DNA from: Janthinobacterium psychrotolerans
GTDB lineage: Bacteria; Pseudomonadota; Gammaproteobacteria; Burkholderiales; Burkholderiaceae_D
Direction: 5' to 3'
Length of the DNA: 64,000 nt
Assembly: GCF_001677885.1 (NCBI RefSeq)
Contig: NZ_LOCQ01000053.1
Coordinates: 62,001-126,000 of the forward strand
The notes under the pieces are model-generated. The model saw only the letters and a list, made by a program, of their open reading frames with translations. It had not been told where the DNA came from and ran no database searches. The position numbers and the translations under genes were made by a program. Positions 42,701 through 50,202 of the stretch are shown piece after piece. How positions within the stretch are numbered: position 1 is the first letter of the stretch; the number at the start of each line of letters is the position of its first letter.

Positions 42701-44344
42701 TTACATACGGCGCGACCCTGCCGCCAGCCGCGCCGCCCTGTCGCCCCACCACGCCGCTTCCTCGAACACGGAAAAGCCCGACAAGTCGGCATGCGCGAAC
42801 AGAATCGCGCCATCATGCTCGCGCAGCGCTTTCAAGCCCGCATTGTTGCGAAAACCGGGCAAGGGTGCGGCCATGGCGTGGCCGCGCACGGTGATGTCGA
42901 CGCGTTCGACGCAGCTGGCGAAGTCGCGGCCGTACGCGGTTTTCAGGTCGACGCTGGCCAGCGCCAGCAGTTCCCCGGGGCTGGCCGTATCGAGCCATTT
43001 GCGGGCCTGTTCCGGCGTGCGGTCGGACAGCGCCACATAGGCGCTGAAGACGGTTTGCTCGGGCGGGCGCACGCGGATATCCTGGTGGGTGGAGACGACA
43101 TAGCCCAGGCCCGGCTCCTGGTACACCACGTTGTCCCAGCACAGCGGCGCATGCGGCAGTTCATGGGGAAAGCGTTTCAATAGAAAATTGGCCACCATCC
43201 ATGGCGCATACGCGGGCGTATCGCGCTTGATGTCAAAGCCATAGCTGGCAATGTCTTTTACCACGCGCGCCGCCACATACAGCGGCATGGCGCAGATGGC
43301 CTTGCGCGCCTTGACAAGATAAGTACGCGGCTGGCCGTCGACCAGTTCCATGCACAGCGCTTCGACGCCGGTCGCCGTGGTGGCGAGCGACACCACCGTG
43401 CCGGCATGGCGCTGGACCCTGGAAGCCTGTGCCAGCGCGGTGGCGACCGGCTGCATGCCGCCTGGCCATGTCAGCCAGGCGCCGTTACCGGCGTTGGCCG
43501 CCTGGCCCCAGCGGCTGCAGTAGTAGTGCAGGCCGGCCCAGGCCGAAACCTGGTCGTAGCGCGTGCCGTAGTCGTCGCGGCAGCAGTAGTTCAGATACCA
43601 GTGCAAGGTGGGCGAGGTATAGCCGTGCCGCTCCATCCAGGTTTTGAGGGTGATGGTGTCGAGCGCCTGCCAGGCCGGGTCTTGCGAAGAGGCGATGGTG
43701 GGGAATACGAACACGCGCTTGCCGTCAATACCGCGCGCCTGGCGCAGCTGCTCGACCTGGGCAAAGAAGCGCCGGTGCTGCGCCAGTTCTTCGGCCGGCA
43801 CGCCTTCGACGGGAATAAAGCCGTCCTGCCAGTGGCCGTTGAACAGCAGCCGTTCCTCCGGCGCGTGCAAAATATAACGCTCGTCGTAAGTCGGCTTTTC
43901 CGCCATCGGATCGCGCAAGATAATGCCCAGGTCATGCAGGATCTCGCGCACGTGGGTCGATTCGGGCGACGGCAAGGGCAGATAGTGGCCGCCGGTGGGA
44001 TAAGCCAGGTCGCCGAAATGGCCGCCGGCCGCATTGCCATACGGTTGCGGGCCGTCGACCATCAAAAAGTCCGTGTGGCCCAGTTTTTTCAGGCGCCAGG
44101 CGGCCGTCAAACCGGCGATGCCGGAGCCGAAGATGGCCACGTCGGTGACGAGGGTGCGCGACGGTGGCGGCAGCGCCTTGCGGTCGCGCAAAAGGTTACG
44201 CAAATAGTGTCCTTCTGCGCGGCCCGGATACAGCACCTTGGGCGTGATCTCCTGCCAGCGCAGATACGCCGCGATGCTGCCGGTGCCCGCGGCCACGGCC
44301 GCCGTGCCGCCGGCCGCCCACAGCATGAAGGAACGGCGCCGCAT
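42701..44344 (-). CDS. FAD-dependent amine oxidase-like protein with Tat-type N-terminus
   Basis: The protein is 547 residues. An N-terminal RRRSFMLWAAGGTAAVAAG stretch (twin-arginine-like signal) precedes an FAD-binding Rossmann motif VAIFGSGIAGLTAAWRLKKLG. The later GGHFGDLAYPTGGHYLP, WPGGMQPVATALA and C-terminal ILFAHADLSGFSVFEEAAWWGDRAA are typical of flavin amine oxidases. It likely acts at the cell surface or in the periplasm. The ATG overlaps the aminopropyltransferase stop by 1 bp, so they are translationally coupled. Substrate inferred: an aminopropylated product or polyamine. Confidence 0.82.
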   Translation of the reverse strand: MRRRSFMLWAAGGTAAVAAGTGSIAAYLRWQEITPKVLYPGRAEGHYLRNLLRDRKALPPPSRTLVTDVAIFGSGIAGLTAAWRLKKLGHTDFLMVDGPQPYGNAAGGHFGDLAYPTGGHYLPLPSPESTHVREILHDLGIILRDPMAEKPTYDERYILHAPEERLLFNGHWQDGFIPVEGVPAEELAQHRRFFAQVEQLRQARGIDGKRVFVFPTIASSQDPAWQALDTITLKTWMERHGYTSPTLHWYLNYCCRDDYGTRYDQVSAWAGLHYYCSRWGQAANAGNGAWLTWPGGMQPVATALAQASRVQRHAGTVVSLATTATGVEALCMELVDGQPRTYLVKARKAICAMPLYVAARVVKDIASYGFDIKRDTPAYAPWMVANFLLKRFPHELPHAPLCWDNVVYQEPGLGYVVSTHQDIRVRPPEQTVFSAYVALSDRTPEQARKWLDTASPGELLALASVDLKTAYGRDFASCVERVDITVRGHAMAAPLPGFRNNAGLKALREHDGAILFAHADLSGFSVFEEAAWWGDRAARLAAGSRRM

Positions 44345-45855
44345 CAGCGTATCACCCGATTCCAGTCCTGCTCGAATTCATGCACCAGCGACTGCGTGTT
44401 GAGACGGTTCGGCGCCATGGCCATCGGCTGCATGTCGGGCGGGAAGATGAACATTTCGCGCGTGGTGTCGGCATTCAGGTAGCGCATCGGCAGGCGGTAG
44501 CTGGTGGGCGGTGTGTAATCGAGCTGCGGCGAGGCAAGGATAAACCCCCACTCGCCGAACGACGGCACATAGGCGTGATACGGCCAGGTGCGCATGCCCA
44601 CTTCGCGCAGGGTCGAGTTAATGGTCCAGTAAGCGTGCGGCGCAAAGAACGGCGAGGTCGATTGCACCACCATCAGGCCTTTGGCCGCCAGGTGTTTTTT
44701 CACCAGGTCGTAGAACGGCACCGAATACAGTTTGCCCAGCGCGAAGCTGGACGGGTCGGGGAAGTCGACGATGGCCGCGTCGAACATATCCTGGTTGTTG
44801 CGCAGCCAGACGGCGGCGTCGGCATTGATGACGGTAACGCGCTTGTCGGAGAACGATTTTTTATTCAGTTCGGCCAGCTCGGGGCGGGTGGTAAACGCGC
44901 CCGTCATGGCCGGGTCCAGGTCGACCACGGTGACGTGCTCGATGTTCGGATAGCGCAGGATCTCGCGCAGCGCCAGGCCGTCGCCACCACCGAGCACCAG
45001 CACGCGGCGCGCCCACGGCAAGGCCTCCATGACCGGATGCACCAGCGCTTCGTGGTAGCGGTATTCATCGCGCGAGGAGAACTGCAGGTTGCCGTTGATG
45101 TAGAGGCGCGTGTCGTCCTTCCAGCGCGTGATCACCAGGCGCTGGTAGGGCGTGGTGGTGGAATAGACGATCTGGTCGCCGAACAGGCCATGCTCGCCCC
45201 ATTCCACCATGCGGTCGGACATGGCAAAGCCGGTCACCAGCAGCAGCATCACGGCGCAGGCGCGCAGGAATTGTCCGCTCATGTTTTTCAGCTCGGCGCG
45301 GAACACATAAATACTCCACAGGCCCACGCCGACATTGAGCATGCCGAACAAAAACCCGGTGCGCACCAGGCCCAGGTAGGGCGACAGCACCAGCGGGAAC
45401 AGCAGCGAGACGGCCAGCGCGCCCAGGTAGTCGAAGGTCAGCACGCGGCTGACCAGTTCGGAAAATTCGGTCTGCCGCGTGTTCAGCGCGCGCATCACCA
45501 GCGGCACCTCCATGCCCACCAGTGCGCCGATCAGGAACACCATCACATACAATAAGGTGCGAAATGGCGCGGCCATCCACGAAAAGGTCATGAACAGGAT
45601 CGCCGCCGACAGCCCGCCGATCAGGCCGACGGCCAGCTCGATATCGACAAAGCGCGACAGCACGTCTTCGTCTTTTACGTACTTTGAAAAGTGAGCGCCT
45701 ACCCCCATGGCAAACAGGTAGCAGCCGATAATCGTGGAAAACTGCAGGATGGAGTCACCCAGCAGATAGCTGGACATGGCGCCGGCGATCAGCTCATACG
45801 CAAGGCCGCAGGAAGCGACCACGAACACCGATAAAATCAGAATCTTTTTGTTCAT
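44344..45855 (-). CDS. speE: Membrane-anchored polyamine aminopropyltransferase (spermidine synthase-like)
   Basis: The protein is 503 residues. The N-terminal part (about 1-210) has seven or so hydrophobic helices, beginning KKILILSVFVVASCGLAYELIAGAMSS. The C-terminal part is a spermidine-synthase fold: YQRLVITRWKD, QFSSRDEYRYHEALVHPVM, VLVLGGGDGLALREIL, VTVVDLDPAM and the catalytic Asp in AAIVDFPDP. It transfers an aminopropyl group from decarboxylated AdoMet to an unknown acceptor near the membrane. The matching AdoMet decarboxylase is encoded in the divergent half of the cluster. Confidence 0.88.
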   Translation of the reverse strand: MNKKILILSVFVVASCGLAYELIAGAMSSYLLGDSILQFSTIIGCYLFAMGVGAHFSKYVKDEDVLSRFVDIELAVGLIGGLSAAILFMTFSWMAAPFRTLLYVMVFLIGALVGMEVPLVMRALNTRQTEFSELVSRVLTFDYLGALAVSLLFPLVLSPYLGLVRTGFLFGMLNVGVGLWSIYVFRAELKNMSGQFLRACAVMLLLVTGFAMSDRMVEWGEHGLFGDQIVYSTTTPYQRLVITRWKDDTRLYINGNLQFSSRDEYRYHEALVHPVMEALPWARRVLVLGGGDGLALREILRYPNIEHVTVVDLDPAMTGAFTTRPELAELNKKSFSDKRVTVINADAAVWLRNNQDMFDAAIVDFPDPSSFALGKLYSVPFYDLVKKHLAAKGLMVVQSTSPFFAPHAYWTINSTLREVGMRTWPYHAYVPSFGEWGFILASPQLDYTPPTSYRLPMRYLNADTTREMFIFPPDMQPMAMAPNRLNTQSLVHEFEQDWNRVIR

Positions 45856-45952
45856 TGGGCTGGTTTTGTTCTAATATGCTTGGACGTTATCAAATGCTCA
45901 TCTGGAAGCGTGGCCATCGCGCCGGCTGGGCGCGCCACTTGCGAGGAATGCC

Positions 45953-46339
45953 GTGCACGACATCCTAAACTATCTGATCCACCTTTTACTGGCCGCCGTG
46001 CTGCTGATTGCTTTTTTTATCATCTACACGCGCGTGACGCCGTATAACGAGGTGCTGCTGATACGCCAGGGTAATCAGGCGGCGGCGCTGTCGCTGGGCG
46101 GCGCCATCCTCGGTTTTTCGGCCACCATCGCCTCCTCGCTGATGCACACGGCGAATTACCAGCAGTTCTTCGCCTGGGCCTTTGGCGCGATGGTGGTGCA
46201 GCTGCTGGCCTACCTGGTCACCACGCGGCTGCTGCGCATGTCGAAGGACCAGATCGAATCGAACAACACCGCCTTTGGCGGCCTGCTGGGCGCCATCGCG
46301 CTGGCCATCGGCGCCATCAACGCCGCCTGCATTTCCTGA
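45953..46339 (+). CDS. DUF350 family membrane protein
   Basis: This 128-residue integral membrane protein has about four hydrophobic helices (LIHLLLAAVLLIAFFIIYTRV, ALSLGGAILGFSATIASS, FFAWAFGAMVVQLLAYLVTTRLL, GLLGAIALAIGAINAACIS), the layout of DUF350. Its function is unknown. GAGGA at 45943-45947 fixes a GTG start at 45953. It is the first gene of the rightward half of the polyamine-linked cluster, 97 bp from the divergent aminopropyltransferase start. Confidence 0.87.
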   Translation: MHDILNYLIHLLLAAVLLIAFFIIYTRVTPYNEVLLIRQGNQAAALSLGGAILGFSATIASSLMHTANYQQFFAWAFGAMVVQLLAYLVTTRLLRMSKDQIESNNTAFGGLLGAIALAIGAINAACIS

Positions 46340-46369
46340 CCCCGTATTCACCTTCGCAAGGACACCATC

Positions 46370-47404
46370 ATGAGCCTCGGCAGCTTTATCAAGAAGCAGT
46401 TTATCGATGTACTGCAGTGGAATGAAGAGAAGGAAGGCGTGCTGGCCTGGCGCTTTCCGATGCAGGATTTCGAGATCCAGAACGGCGCCATTCTGAACGT
46501 GCGCGAGTCGCAGGTGGCCGTGTTCGTCAACGAAGGCAAGATCGCCGACGTGTTCGGCCCCGGCACGCACAAGCTGACCACGCAAACCCTGCCCCTGCTG
46601 ACCAACCTGAAAAACTGGGACAAGCTGTTCGATTCGCCCTTCAAGTCGGACGTGTATTACTTCAGCACCCGCGTACAGACCGGCCGCAAATGGGGCACGC
46701 CGCAGCCGATCACGATCCGCGACAAGGACTTCGACATGATACGCGTGCGCGCCTTTGGCATGTACTCGTACCGCATCGCCGACGCCCGCACCTTTTTTAC
46801 GGAAATTTCCGGCACGCGCGACGTCTACACGCGTGACGAAGTGGAAGATCAATTGCGCGGCATCCTGATGGCCAGCATGGCCAGCTCGCTCGGTGGCGCC
46901 AACGTGCCCTTCCTCGACATGGCCGCCAACCAGGCGCTGATGGCGCAAGAGGTCAAGGACGGCTTGCGCCAGGCGTTTGCCCGCTATGGCGTGGGCCTCG
47001 ATGAATTCAATGTGGCCAGCATCAGCCTGCCCGAAGAACTGCAGGTGGCGCTGGACGAGCGCATTTCGGCCGGCATGAAGGGCGGCCTGGGCGCCGACAA
47101 GATGAGCGGCTTTACCAAGTTCCAGGTGGCGAACGCGATTCCGCTGGCGGCGCAGAACGAAGGTGGCCTGGCCGGCGTCGGCGCGGGCCTGGGCGCCGGA
47201 CTGTCGATCGGCCAGGTAATGGCGCAGGGCATGGGCAATGCGCTGCAGCAGCCCGCGCCGGCGCCAGCCGTGCCTCCCGCGCCTGTCGAAGAACCGGTCG
47301 AAGCGCGCCTGGAAAAGCTCAAGGGCCTGCTCGACAAGGGACTGATTTCGCCGGCCGACTACGACGGCGCGAAAGTGGAACTGCTGAAAAAACTGATCGG
47401 CTAA
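46370..47404 (+). CDS. SPFH-domain protein with C-terminal SHOCT domain (YdjI-like)
   Basis: This 344-residue protein has an N-terminal SPFH/band-7 region (LAWRFPMQDFEIQNGAILNVRESQVAVFVNEGKIADVFGPGTHKL, with the usual PGTH-like element), a helical region with RGILMASMASSL and DEFNVASISLP, a Gly/Ala-rich linker (GLGAGLSIGQVMAQGMG) and a C-terminal SHOCT motif LEKLKGLLDKGLISPADYDGAK. Such proteins assemble on membranes and may scaffold enzymes. It starts 30 bp after the DUF350 stop. Confidence 0.88.
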   Translation: MSLGSFIKKQFIDVLQWNEEKEGVLAWRFPMQDFEIQNGAILNVRESQVAVFVNEGKIADVFGPGTHKLTTQTLPLLTNLKNWDKLFDSPFKSDVYYFSTRVQTGRKWGTPQPITIRDKDFDMIRVRAFGMYSYRIADARTFFTEISGTRDVYTRDEVEDQLRGILMASMASSLGGANVPFLDMAANQALMAQEVKDGLRQAFARYGVGLDEFNVASISLPEELQVALDERISAGMKGGLGADKMSGFTKFQVANAIPLAAQNEGGLAGVGAGLGAGLSIGQVMAQGMGNALQQPAPAPAVPPAPVEEPVEARLEKLKGLLDKGLISPADYDGAKVELLKKLIG

Positions 47405-47425
47405 ATATCGGCGAAATACGACTGC

Positions 47426-48883
47426 ATGCAAACTGTTTCCTGTCCCAGCTGCGGCGCGGAAGTCCACTTCCGCTCGCACGCTTCCGTGCTGGCCGTGTGC
47501 GAGTACTGCCACGGCACCATCCTGAAAGACGCCGACGCGGTGCGCGACATCGGCAAGATGTCGGCCGTGCTGGAAGACTATACGCCGATCCAGGTCGGCA
47601 CGGCCGGCGTGCATGACGGCGTCAACTTCACGGTGATCGGGCGCATCCAGCAGCGCTATGCGGCCGGTACCTGGAACGAATGGTATGTGCTGTTCGACGA
47701 CGCCAGCACGGCGTGGCTGGGCGACTCGTCCGGCCTGTACACGCTCACGCGCGAGCGCAAGGCCAACGGCGCCCTGCCCGCCTTTGCCGAACTGCGACCG
47801 GGCCAGCAATACAACATCAATGGCGAGCCGTACACGGCGGCCGAAGTGCGCAGCGGCGAGTGCATCGCCGGCCAGGGCGAACTGCCGTTCAAGGTCGGCA
47901 GCGGCTGGCGCATCCAGGTGGCGGACTTGCGCAACTACGCCAGCTTCGCCACGCTCGACTATACCGATGGCCCGCAGCCGGTGCTGTACCAGGGCGTGGC
48001 CGTTACATTGGAAGGCATGCAGTGCCAGCTGCTGCGCGACACCGACGCGATCGCGCGCACCGCCGGCAAATACCGCGGCAAGCTCGATGCGCTCGACTGC
48101 CCTTCCTGCGGCAGCGGCATCAAGTATGTGCCGGGCGCCGCCGCGCAGCTGGTCTGCCCGGCCTGCCATGCGCAGCTCGACGCCAGCGGCCCCGAGGCGC
48201 AGGTTCTGGCCAAGGGCAAACAGGTAGAAGACGAAGCCGACATCACGCTGGAACTGGGCGCCAGCGCCAGGATCAACAACACCGAGTTCACCGTGATCGG
48301 CATGATGCGCCGCGCCGACGACGAAGGCACCGAGTGGAACGAATACCTGCTGTACAACGCGCACGCCGGCTTTTTCTGGCTGGTGGAAACCGACGACGGC
48401 TGGTCGCGCGCCAACGTGCTGCCGAACTGGCCCACCTGGGCCTCACTGGAAGCCGAAAAATGCACGCTCGACGGCGCCACCTATACCAAGCTGTATGACT
48501 ACGGCTCGCAAGTGACGTATGCGGCCGGCGCCTTCAACTGGAAGGTGGCCGTCGGCGACACCACCCACGTGTATGAATTCGAACAGGGGCAAACAAAACT
48601 GGCGGCCGAGCTGACCGCCGAAGAGATGACCTGGTCGCGCTCCACGCCGGTCGCCTACGACCAGATGAGCGCCTGGTTCGGCGCCGCCTTTCACGGCGTC
48701 ACGCCGTCCTCGGACAGCAAGATGAGCCACCGCGGCGTGGCCAAGGTCTTCATCATCATCACCCTGGTGTTGAACGCGATTCCGATGTTCGTCTCGTTTT
48801 CCAGCACCCTGATGTGGAGCATGCTCGGTTGCCTGGCGCTGTTCGTGCCCGCCCTTTTTCTCGACAAGAACAAGACCCCATAA
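47426..48883 (+). CDS. DUF4178 zinc-ribbon membrane protein
   Basis: This 485-residue protein has an N-terminal zinc ribbon (CPSCG at 6-10 and CEYCHG at 25-30), one DUF4178 domain (about 55-190, WNEWYVLFDDASTAWLGDS), a second zinc ribbon (CPSC 225-228, CPACH 244-248), a second DUF4178 (about 280-410, EWNEYLLYNAHAGFFWLVETDDGWS) and two C-terminal transmembrane helices (FIIITLVLNAIPMFV and LMWSMLGCLALFVPALFL). The function is not established. Its stop overlaps the next small gene by 1 bp. Confidence 0.85.
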   Translation: MQTVSCPSCGAEVHFRSHASVLAVCEYCHGTILKDADAVRDIGKMSAVLEDYTPIQVGTAGVHDGVNFTVIGRIQQRYAAGTWNEWYVLFDDASTAWLGDSSGLYTLTRERKANGALPAFAELRPGQQYNINGEPYTAAEVRSGECIAGQGELPFKVGSGWRIQVADLRNYASFATLDYTDGPQPVLYQGVAVTLEGMQCQLLRDTDAIARTAGKYRGKLDALDCPSCGSGIKYVPGAAAQLVCPACHAQLDASGPEAQVLAKGKQVEDEADITLELGASARINNTEFTVIGMMRRADDEGTEWNEYLLYNAHAGFFWLVETDDGWSRANVLPNWPTWASLEAEKCTLDGATYTKLYDYGSQVTYAAGAFNWKVAVGDTTHVYEFEQGQTKLAAELTAEEMTWSRSTPVAYDQMSAWFGAAFHGVTPSSDSKMSHRGVAKVFIIITLVLNAIPMFVSFSSTLMWSMLGCLALFVPALFLDKNKTP

Positions 48884-49053
48884 TGAGCAAATACGTGATC
48901 TACGCGCTGATGGTGACCTTCTCCGTCACGGCCGCCAACTGGGTGCGCATGTTCAAGGTGGCCGGCAGTGGCGGCGGCAGCAGCTGGAGTTCGCGCACCG
49001 GCAGCGGCGGCGGCAGCTATGGCGGCGGCTCGAGCGGCGGCAGCCACAAGTGA
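48883..49053 (+). CDS. Small Gly/Ser-rich membrane protein
   Basis: The protein is 56 residues: one transmembrane helix (YVIYALMVTFSVTAANWV) and a tail made almost entirely of Gly and Ser (SGGGSSWSSRTGSGGGSYGG then HK). The ATG overlaps the stop of the DUF4178 gene by 1 bp (TAATG). It is too short for easy recognition, but the coupled starts and the position between two conserved genes argue that it is real. Confidence 0.65.
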   Translation: MSKYVIYALMVTFSVTAANWVRMFKVAGSGGGSSWSSRTGSGGGSYGGGSSGGSHK

Positions 49054-49054
49054 C

Positions 49055-49435
49055 ATGACGGCAAGCGTGCACCTGCCATTGGGCACCCATCTGCTGGCCG
49101 ATTTGTCCGGCGTCGATGCGGCCGCTTTGCGCGACTGCGCGGCACTGGAGTCGCTGCTGCGCCAGGCGGCCGTTGCAGCCGGCGCGCAGGTATTGCATGG
49201 CCACTTCCACAGCTTTGGCCAGGAAGCCGGCGTGACCGGCGTGCTGCTGCTGGCCGAATCGCATATCTCGATCCATACCTGGCCGGAAGCCGGCTTTGCC
49301 GCCGTCGATATCTTCATGTGCGGCGCAGCCAGGCCGCAGCTGGCGCTCGATATCATCAGTACACAGCTGCAAGCGCAGCACTGCACATTGCATACGGCGC
49401 GGCGCGCGCCACCGGGCCAGGCCATTGCTGGCTGA
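49055..49435 (+). CDS. speD: S-adenosylmethionine decarboxylase (SpeD, short prokaryotic type)
   Basis: This 126-residue self-processing pyruvoyl enzyme makes decarboxylated AdoMet, the aminopropyl donor. The cleavage site is Glu68-Ser69 in LAESHISIHTWPE, where the Ser becomes the pyruvoyl group, and VDIFMCG carries the conserved catalytic Cys. The ATG at 49055 lies 1 bp after the preceding stop codon, so the operon is tight. It supplies the membrane aminopropyltransferase encoded divergently. Confidence 0.92.
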   Translation: MTASVHLPLGTHLLADLSGVDAAALRDCAALESLLRQAAVAAGAQVLHGHFHSFGQEAGVTGVLLLAESHISIHTWPEAGFAAVDIFMCGAARPQLALDIISTQLQAQHCTLHTARRAPPGQAIAG

Positions 49436-49485
49436 TCGCCGGTGGATCGCTTACACTGTCGGCTCACTTCTTATCGATCACGCCC

Positions 49486-50040
49486 ATGCGCCGTTCCGCC
49501 CTGCTTGCTTTCCCACTCCTGCTGCTGGTGTCCGCCTGCGACGACTATACGGCGCCCAGCCTGTACCAGGCCACCACGCCTGACTGCAAGACATGGACCG
49601 AAGGCTCGCGCTTCGAACTGCCGCGCGGCATTTCCGTCTACGCCACGCCGCCGACCACGCTGAAAGACGGCGGCACGGAACTGGCGCTGATCTTCACTTT
49701 ACCGGTCGGCACCCAGGCCAGTTTTACAAGGTTGTCCTTCCTGCTGGAAGAGCCGAAAAAACCGCCTTTTGCGAATGCCAGGGTGACCACCATCTACCAG
49801 CGCGGCCTGGACCAGAAGGCGGAAATCGTCGACGTGATCGAGCAGCTGCCCATCATGTTTTCGGCGGTCGGCAACAGCAAGGCCACGCAATGGCGCTTGC
49901 GCCTGCAGCTGCCGCGCCAGCTGCCGCAGCGCTTTGACCTGAACATGCCGGACATGCTGGTGGCCGGCAAGCGCTATCCGGTGCGCACGTTTACGTACCG
50001 GTATTTTGACGAGCGCAAGGCGTACGGCATGTGCAGCTGA
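49486..50040 (+). CDS. Putative lipoprotein of unknown function
   Basis: This 184-residue protein starts with a lipoprotein signal peptide, MRRSALLAFPLLLLVSAC, whose lipobox VSAC gives a lipidated Cys18. The Asp that follows favours inner-membrane retention by the E. coli +2 rule, which may not hold here. The rest is a predicted beta-rich domain (LALIFTLPVGTQASFTRLSF, TYRYFDERKAYGMC) that I do not recognise. It lies 50 bp after speD and could be a part of the same operon. Confidence 0.75.
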   Translation: MRRSALLAFPLLLLVSACDDYTAPSLYQATTPDCKTWTEGSRFELPRGISVYATPPTTLKDGGTELALIFTLPVGTQASFTRLSFLLEEPKKPPFANARVTTIYQRGLDQKAEIVDVIEQLPIMFSAVGNSKATQWRLRLQLPRQLPQRFDLNMPDMLVAGKRYPVRTFTYRYFDERKAYGMCS

Positions 50041-50064: not shown

Positions 50065-50182
50065 GTCGGATTACGCTACGCCTGGGCGGCCCCGCTAATC
50101 CGACCTGCGCATGGCACGTATCCAATACCACCAACATCAAACAGCATCGTAGGTCGGGTTAGCCGGCACGGCGTAACCCGAC
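50065..50182. repeat. REP-like palindromic repeat, two copies (50065-50104 and 50153-50182)
   Basis: The first copy has GTCGGATTA/TAATCCGAC arms with a 22-bp centre. The second has GTCGGGTTA/TAACCCGAC arms with a 12-bp centre. They fill the gap between the lipoprotein gene and the atp terminator. Confidence 0.9.
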
Positions 50183-50202
50183 ACCACCACCACCACCACC
50201 AG

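Follow-up and report, generated by a model that had tools for sequence, protein, structure and literature searches.

A conserved C-terminal lysine as a candidate acceptor in a membrane aminopropyltransferase gene cluster of Janthinobacterium psychrotolerans

The stretch of DNA analysed here (the window: 64,000 nucleotides of Janthinobacterium psychrotolerans, contig NZ_LOCQ01000053.1, positions 62,001 to 126,000 of the forward strand) carries a divergent gene cluster that encodes, among others, a membrane aminopropyltransferase (mSpeE), an S-adenosylmethionine (AdoMet) decarboxylase (SpeD), a protein with DUF4178 domains and a mini-protein of 56 amino acids (48883–49053, plus strand). The mini-protein has one transmembrane (TM) or signal helix and a low-complexity Gly/Ser tail with the end ...SGGSHK, and its homologues are encoded directly after the DUF4178 gene or are fused to the DUF4178 protein. 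By comparing related loci we found that this tail ends in a conserved lysine, which, judged from the sequences, is a new and unusually strong clue to the substrate of a kind of locus that is known but not solved. The original prediction for this region had recognized the Gly/Ser-rich mini-protein, whose existence we can confirm, but had missed the invariant C-terminal lysine which makes it a strong acceptor candidate.

Among 85 DUF4178 loci from many phyla the tail is present locally in 84, and all 84 tails carry the C-terminal lysine. In 73 of these loci the tail is encoded by a separate gene directly after the DUF4178 gene, and in 11 it is fused to the C-terminus of the DUF4178 protein with no separate mini-gene present (loci L058, L059, L067, L088, L091, L134, L137, L138, L139, L146 and L148). 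At the 85th locus, L045, SpeD is found on another contig and the mini-protein is encoded just upstream of that SpeD; with this sequence included the last residue is lysine in 85 of 85 tails. The penultimate residue is histidine in 70 tails, glycine in 14 and isoleucine in one. At the DNA level the tail end is mixed: histidine is encoded by CAC 46 times and by CAT 24 times, lysine by AAA 49 times and by AAG 36 times, and all three stop codons occur. This mixture of synonymous codons indicates that selection acts on the protein end and not on the DNA, and together with the differing downstream genes it speaks against a ribosome-binding site as the origin of the HK end. No such fixed end is seen in the remaining proteins of these loci, and among 26,291 short open reading frames (ORFs) in the loci just 68 have an HK end, the mini-proteins making up most of these.

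New data were obtained from 12 genomes in which the other cluster genes are missing from the mSpeE locus; these genomes were searched for DUF4178. This domain is encoded elsewhere in 11 of these 12 split-cluster genomes, two of the second loci being cut by a contig end ahead of the tail. In the nine readable second loci the HK tail was found eight times, twice in the fused form, and at locus L159 no tail adjoins DUF4178. In addition, all five plasmid-borne clusters analysed later (mSpeE identity 31–54%) encode a TM/signal protein ending in lysine, with the ends SHK in Novosphingobium, RVK in Tritonibacter, SGK in Ensifer and Alteromonas and HGK in Gemmatirosa. For Tritonibacter, Ensifer and Gemmatirosa only lysine-ending candidates were inspected, so that these are weaker tests; in each of the three the protein is encoded just upstream of mSpeE. 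Clusters of the PspA type (L061, L062, L064 and L065) encode a small Gly-rich protein ending in GL[RH]GGK. The lysine tail very probably belongs to the core of the cluster.

Some of these loci have further peculiarities. In Solitalea agri (L121, 5440–8662) a cassette of DUF4178, mini-protein and DUF350 genes is duplicated in tandem, and both mini-proteins end in ...SYYHK. On the Alteromonas plasmid (L188) the genes of mSpeE and SpeD are joined by those of DUF4178, DUF350 and a toxic-anion-resistance protein; in place of the mini-protein there is a secreted protein of 510 amino acids ending in ...SSGK. In Ensifer (L187) SpeD, DUF350 and a tail ending in ...ESGK are encoded beside mSpeE.

The enzyme which could act on the tail is mSpeE (44344–45855, minus strand, 503 amino acids), with seven TM helices and a spermidine-synthase domain. 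It matches NF002956/PRK03612 with 690 bits (cut-off 472), and its AlphaFold2 (AF2) model (pLDDT 90) has seven long TM helices followed by the SpeE domain, a C-terminal half that matches solved SpeE aminopropyltransferases. The donor-site motif GGGDG (G289–G293) and the catalytic residues D364 and D367 (D-[FL]-P-DP) are conserved in at least 98% of 107 homologues. Among the SpeE matches in the genome that of mSpeE alone is strong (127.6 bits); three others are weak (21.6–32.2 bits), and one of these partly resembles PRK04457 (193.8 bits, below the 304-bit cut-off). The SpeE domain (window 44347–45855) also matches mad2, probably through the shared methyltransferase-like fold alone.

The orientation of the enzyme can be predicted from the charges of its loops. 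Over the 107 homologues the number of lysine plus arginine residues is 1.43 for the N-terminus and 0.02, 1.84, 0.01, 2.50, 0.32 and 2.38 for the successive loops L12, L23, L34, L45, L56 and L67. These charges place the N-terminus inside, and with seven crossings the SpeE domain comes to lie outside; it is thus predicted to be periplasmic. As topology tests, the cysteine content of the SpeE domain (mean 0.58 per domain) and the charge bias at the flanks of the mini-protein helix (1.03 versus 1.38 lysine plus arginine) were not decisive. In 10 of the 11 fused DUF4178 proteins, the tail is set off from the CxxC-bearing domain by 1 or 3 hydrophobic/TM segments, and it would therefore lie on the side opposite to this presumably cytoplasmic domain. 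Within the TM domain of mSpeE the acidic residues E21, E116 and D142 are invariant, and this makes the domain a candidate path for the donor.

The second leftward gene codes for an amine oxidase with flavin adenine dinucleotide (FAD) as cofactor (42701–44344, minus strand, 547 amino acids; Pfam Amino_oxidase, PF01593, and NAD_binding_8) and with a twin-arginine translocation (Tat) signal. Its N-terminus reads MRRRSFM, and the RRxF motif (R3, R4 and F6) is invariant in 12 homologues, which suggests that the oxidase is exported in the folded state. Thus, three independent pieces of evidence, namely the loop charges, the Tat motif and the crossings of the fused proteins, point to the periplasmic side, and the placement of the chemistry at the envelope by the original prediction is supported by the topology signal of mSpeE and the Tat signal of the oxidase. 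The AF2 model of the oxidase (pLDDT 86.7) has as its best folds in the PDB a putrescine oxidase (Z 28.2) and monoamine oxidases of bacteria and humans, with a spermidine dehydrogenase (Z 25.7) lower on the list. The substrates of such FAD enzymes are amines, for several of them polyamines and N-alkylated amines. As these amine oxidases have one fold in common, the fold does not settle the substrate.

The donor would be supplied by SpeD (49055–49435, plus strand, 126 amino acids), a class 1b AdoMet decarboxylase with 122 bits to AdoMet_dc and 127 bits to TIGR03330 (cut-off 75.65), and the single match in the genome. In an alignment with solved AdoMet decarboxylase entries (2iii, 1vr7 and 1tlu), the T. 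maritima enzyme among them, the pyruvoyl serine, the histidine, the cysteine and the proline are all present. The first three residues, together with the proline that separates AdoMet decarboxylase from arginine decarboxylase, mark a bona fide AdoMet decarboxylase (PMC10407285). By its sequence SpeD has the residues of a true class 1b enzyme, and this diagnostic set speaks against a neofunctionalised ornithine or arginine decarboxylase. As SpeD has no signal, decarboxylated AdoMet would have to cross the membrane.

The other conserved genes of the cluster are all on the plus strand. They code for an integral membrane protein of the DUF350 family (45953–46339, GTG start, 128 amino acids; Pfam DUF350 4e-32, 111 bits), for an SPFH/band-7 protein with a C-terminal SHOCT-like segment (46370–47404, 344 amino acids; Band_7_1 2e-73, 247 bits; the SHOCT match is weak with 21 bits and 2e-4, below the 27-bit cut-off) and for the DUF4178 protein (47426–48883, 485 amino acids; Pfam DUF4178 4e-23). 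The latter has a C-terminal TM region and two DUF4178 domains, found as two Pfam stretches, and each domain is preceded by zinc-ribbon-like CxxC cysteine pairs.

In a sample of 120 genomes of the order Burkholderiales which was searched for the DUF4178 protein and SpeD, 18 genomes encode the DUF4178 protein. SpeD is present in all 18 of them versus 24 of the 102 genomes without DUF4178 (Fisher 3e-10, relatedness uncorrected). Of the 17 non-self loci of this order, which were fetched by DUF4178 alone, all 17 encode DUF350 and 16 encode mSpeE; an oxidase gene is present in 14, an SPFH gene in 13 and a SpeD gene in 10. A scan of the mSpeE alignment against 84,980 species genomes yielded 80 further loci from Pseudomonadota, Acidobacteriota, Gemmatimonadota, Bacteroidota, Verrucomicrobiota and Leptospiraceae, the majority of which have the same gene set in several orders; the nearest loci are those of Duganella, Massilia and other Oxalobacteraceae (mSpeE identity 84–86%). 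DUF350 is encoded in 82 and SPFH in 63 of the 85 DUF4178 loci, some of which are truncated by contig ends. The grouping of these genes is far beyond chance: the neighbours keep together as the original prediction had expected, and the rare co-occurrence that would have spoken against it did not arise.

One gene does not belong to this group. A lipoprotein of 184 amino acids (49486–50040, plus strand, best start ATG 49486) adjoins the cluster and had been counted as a member of the system, but a homologue is kept in just one of 108 related loci (L107). The lipoprotein is therefore lineage-specific and outside the conserved system, which is made up of two leftward genes (oxidase and mSpeE) and five rightward genes (DUF350, SPFH/SHOCT, DUF4178, mini-protein and SpeD). 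A complete genome of the same family (G170, 5.2 Mb) is without DUF4178 and without SpeD, consistent with a joint loss of the whole system. Judged by eye, L043, L048 and L049 have additional genes inserted within the cluster, in L043 an alpha/beta-hydrolase-like and a protease-like ORF and in L048 small bactofilin-like and glutathione-dependent-formaldehyde-activating-like ORFs.

Concerning the layout in the window, all eight predicted ORFs are present with their identities, as judged by Pfam, NCBIfam and direct reading of the sequence, and they diverge from an intergenic region of 97 bp (45856–45952) in which a consensus scan found neither a sigma-70-like promoter nor a terminator. The genes of mSpeE and the oxidase overlap by 1 nucleotide, as do those of the DUF4178 protein and the mini-protein, and speD starts one base past the stop of the mini-protein. 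For the mini-protein and the lipoprotein no Pfam or NCBIfam family was matched. Between the lipoprotein gene and the gene of the ATP synthase epsilon subunit (window 50080–50190) palindromic repeats resembling repetitive extragenic palindromic (REP) elements (GTAGGTCGGGTTAGC...) and a CACCAC run are found. A function in anti-phage defence was considered and rejected, as PADLOC gives just a 54-bit mad2 match of the SpeE domain and a negligible match for the oxidase.

The simplest interpretation of these results is that the enzymes of the cluster act on the tail end. We suggest, with a probability of about 40% for the full mechanism, that mSpeE aminopropylates the C-terminal lysine of the tail outside the membrane and that the oxidase acts afterwards. 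SpeD would produce decarboxylated AdoMet, and the TM domain of mSpeE or the DUF350 protein would pass this cationic donor across the membrane. The mini-protein would be a Gly/Ser tether that is anchored in the membrane and exposes its tail on the outside, and the periplasm-facing domain of mSpeE would move the aminopropyl group onto the epsilon-amine of its last lysine. Like putrescine, to which aminopropyl groups are classically transferred, the side chain of lysine has a primary amine on four carbons, so that its modification would yield N6-(3-aminopropyl)lysine, a cap resembling spermidine on a flexible tether. Given that FAD amine oxidases act on amines, the Tat-exported oxidase could then oxidise or remove the cap and thereby either form a reactive aldehyde for cross-linking or reset the tail. 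DUF350, SPFH/SHOCT and DUF4178 might form a membrane assembly that holds the tail, DUF4178 and tail being one protein in some species. The purpose would most likely lie in envelope stress or surface charge.

Several points weigh against this mechanism. We know of no precedent for exported decarboxylated AdoMet, which a periplasmic aminopropyltransferase would need. The catalytic residues of enzymes that act on small amines are retained in mSpeE, leaving room for a small acceptor, and some clusters are without the oxidase or without a local SpeD. The tail end could also be a signal for recognition or assembly rather than a substrate. Finally, the type of tail is associated with residue 256 of mSpeE, which is asparagine in 69 of 71 enzymes with HK tails versus 1 of 18 with GK tails, the GK tails being found with histidine, alanine or serine. 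This apparent coevolution is phylogenetically confounded, and because it goes back to about two events on the tree we do not use it as proof.

The small-amine active site (GGGDG, D364 and D367) also fits an enzyme whose acceptor at the envelope is a small molecule or a lipid amine, such as an exported diamine or phosphatidylethanolamine, with the lysine tail as a structural or sensing subunit that places the enzyme. The membrane linkage of the whole cluster would agree with such a function. On its own, however, it leaves unexplained why just the last one or two residues of an otherwise variable tail persist, both in trans and in fused proteins, and we regard this alternative as rather unlikely.

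What the tails conserve is a free primary amine at their very tip, and the oxidase is exported and has an amine-oxidase fold. The lysine might be the direct substrate of the oxidase, which would form allysine for cross-linking in the manner of a lysyl oxidase; or the tail end might serve as a docking signal or pseudosubstrate, filling the acceptor site of mSpeE and thereby regulating the enzyme. Yet the tail persists where no local oxidase is found (for example, L043, L060, L064 and L067), and neither variant accounts for the linkage to SpeD, which makes us doubt this explanation still more.

Plain spermidine synthesis by a membrane-tethered SpeE, with the other genes being incidental, is highly improbable in view of the association with five other genes that is kept across several phyla, of the SpeE domain predicted outside the cytoplasm and of the putrescine and 2-hydroxyputrescine reported for Ralstonia pickettii (PMC7857480), whose relative Ralstonia soli (L083) has the cluster. 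The genome does have its only full-strength SpeD and SpeE here, and for a second spermidine route the carboxyspermidine decarboxylase model TIGR01047 gave 28 bits versus a cut-off of 409, as expected of a relative with the alanine-racemase fold; no wider search was made. With this sole pair, and no carboxyspermidine decarboxylase above the cut-off, any spermidine must derive from it. The original view of a membrane polyamine-linked module that differs from plain spermidine synthesis is in agreement with these results.

Such neighbourhoods have been published before, as the original prediction had stated. Ravi et al. 2024 described operons of a TM-fused spermine synthase, DUF350, DUF4178, band-7, AdoMet decarboxylase and polyamine oxidase, including a PspA-free variant whose band-7 protein has two C-terminal TM helices and SHOCT, and suggested polyamine sensing or the aminopropylation of other substrates with the acceptor left open (PMC11237479). 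In the main text of this report, the one DUF4178 paper that was found, neither a mini-protein nor a lysine tail is mentioned (PMC11237479). The present cluster has the same genes (TM-fused spermine-synthase domain, DUF350, DUF4178, band-7, AdoMet decarboxylase and polyamine oxidase) and in addition the mini-protein with its lysine tail. The idea of the original prediction, including its statement that the biochemistry is unsettled, is thus close to the published view.

A related case is that of fusions between a major facilitator superfamily (MFS) transporter and spermidine synthase (SpdSyn), for which Li and colleagues are said to have found active class 1b AdoMet decarboxylases and a failure of the fusions to complement a spermidine-synthase deletion. 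Spermidine was reportedly absent, DUF350 was linked, and an acceptor other than putrescine is said to have been proposed, none being named. An AdoMet decarboxylase, a membrane-fused SpdSyn domain and DUF350, as reported for those fusions, are also encoded in the present cluster; a specific protein end and a periplasmic orientation are proposed here.

A more distant parallel is found in Escherichia coli, where yjfIJKLMC contains neighbouring genes for YjfM, YjfC and the DUF350 protein YjfL, and ygiBC encodes YgiB next to YgiC. YjfM and YgiB of strain MG1655 (L173 and L184) have Gly/Ser-rich tails ending in Gly-Gly, and of nine DUF1190 matches in other genomes five clearly end in GG, three end in GS, SSS and EGS, and one was not resolved. 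A Gly-Gly end behind a Gly/Ser-rich tail is thus frequent in DUF1190 proteins, which are encoded next to the ligases (also at L175–L182). YjfC and YgiC are peptide-spermidine ligases according to Pederick 2023 as cited in PMC12568646. Common to the yjf/ygi genes and the present cluster are a DUF350 protein (YjfL), a Gly/Ser tail with a fixed end and an enzyme by which a polyamine is attached to peptides or, as we propose, to a tail. By contrast, their enzyme is an ATP-grasp amide ligase, a family with no Pfam match among the eight cluster proteins, their tail end is Gly-Gly and not His-Lys, and no SpeD is among the yjf/ygi genes shown. By analogy, the comparison is suggestive of a polyamine being placed on a tethered tail by different chemistry in the two systems, and the Gly-Gly DUF1190 tail may be the natural substrate of the ligases. 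In hypusine formation, a polyamine-derived aminoalkyl group is likewise put on a protein lysine; this reaction is cytoplasmic and NAD-dependent, spermidine donates an aminobutyl group, and an internal lysine of eIF5A is the acceptor. The present cluster has no homologue of the hypusine pathway.

We tentatively put forward that the cluster performs a new bacterial post-translational modification, the extracytoplasmic aminopropylation of the C-terminal lysine of a dedicated tethered tail with processing of the cap by a Tat oxidase. Peptide-spermidine ligation, for which the -GG tails of DUF1190 proteins are possible substrates, would be its counterpart. If true, this would be a new protein modification and, to our knowledge, the first case in which decarboxylated AdoMet is used outside the cytoplasm. 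In addition, it would account for many genes annotated as spermidine synthase or AdoMet decarboxylase, and the polyamine predictions for such genomes would have to be altered. Membrane aminopropyltransferases are widespread in several phyla, and the invariant lysine, which is kept even when the tail is fused, reduces the question of their acceptor to the mass spectrometry of one peptide.

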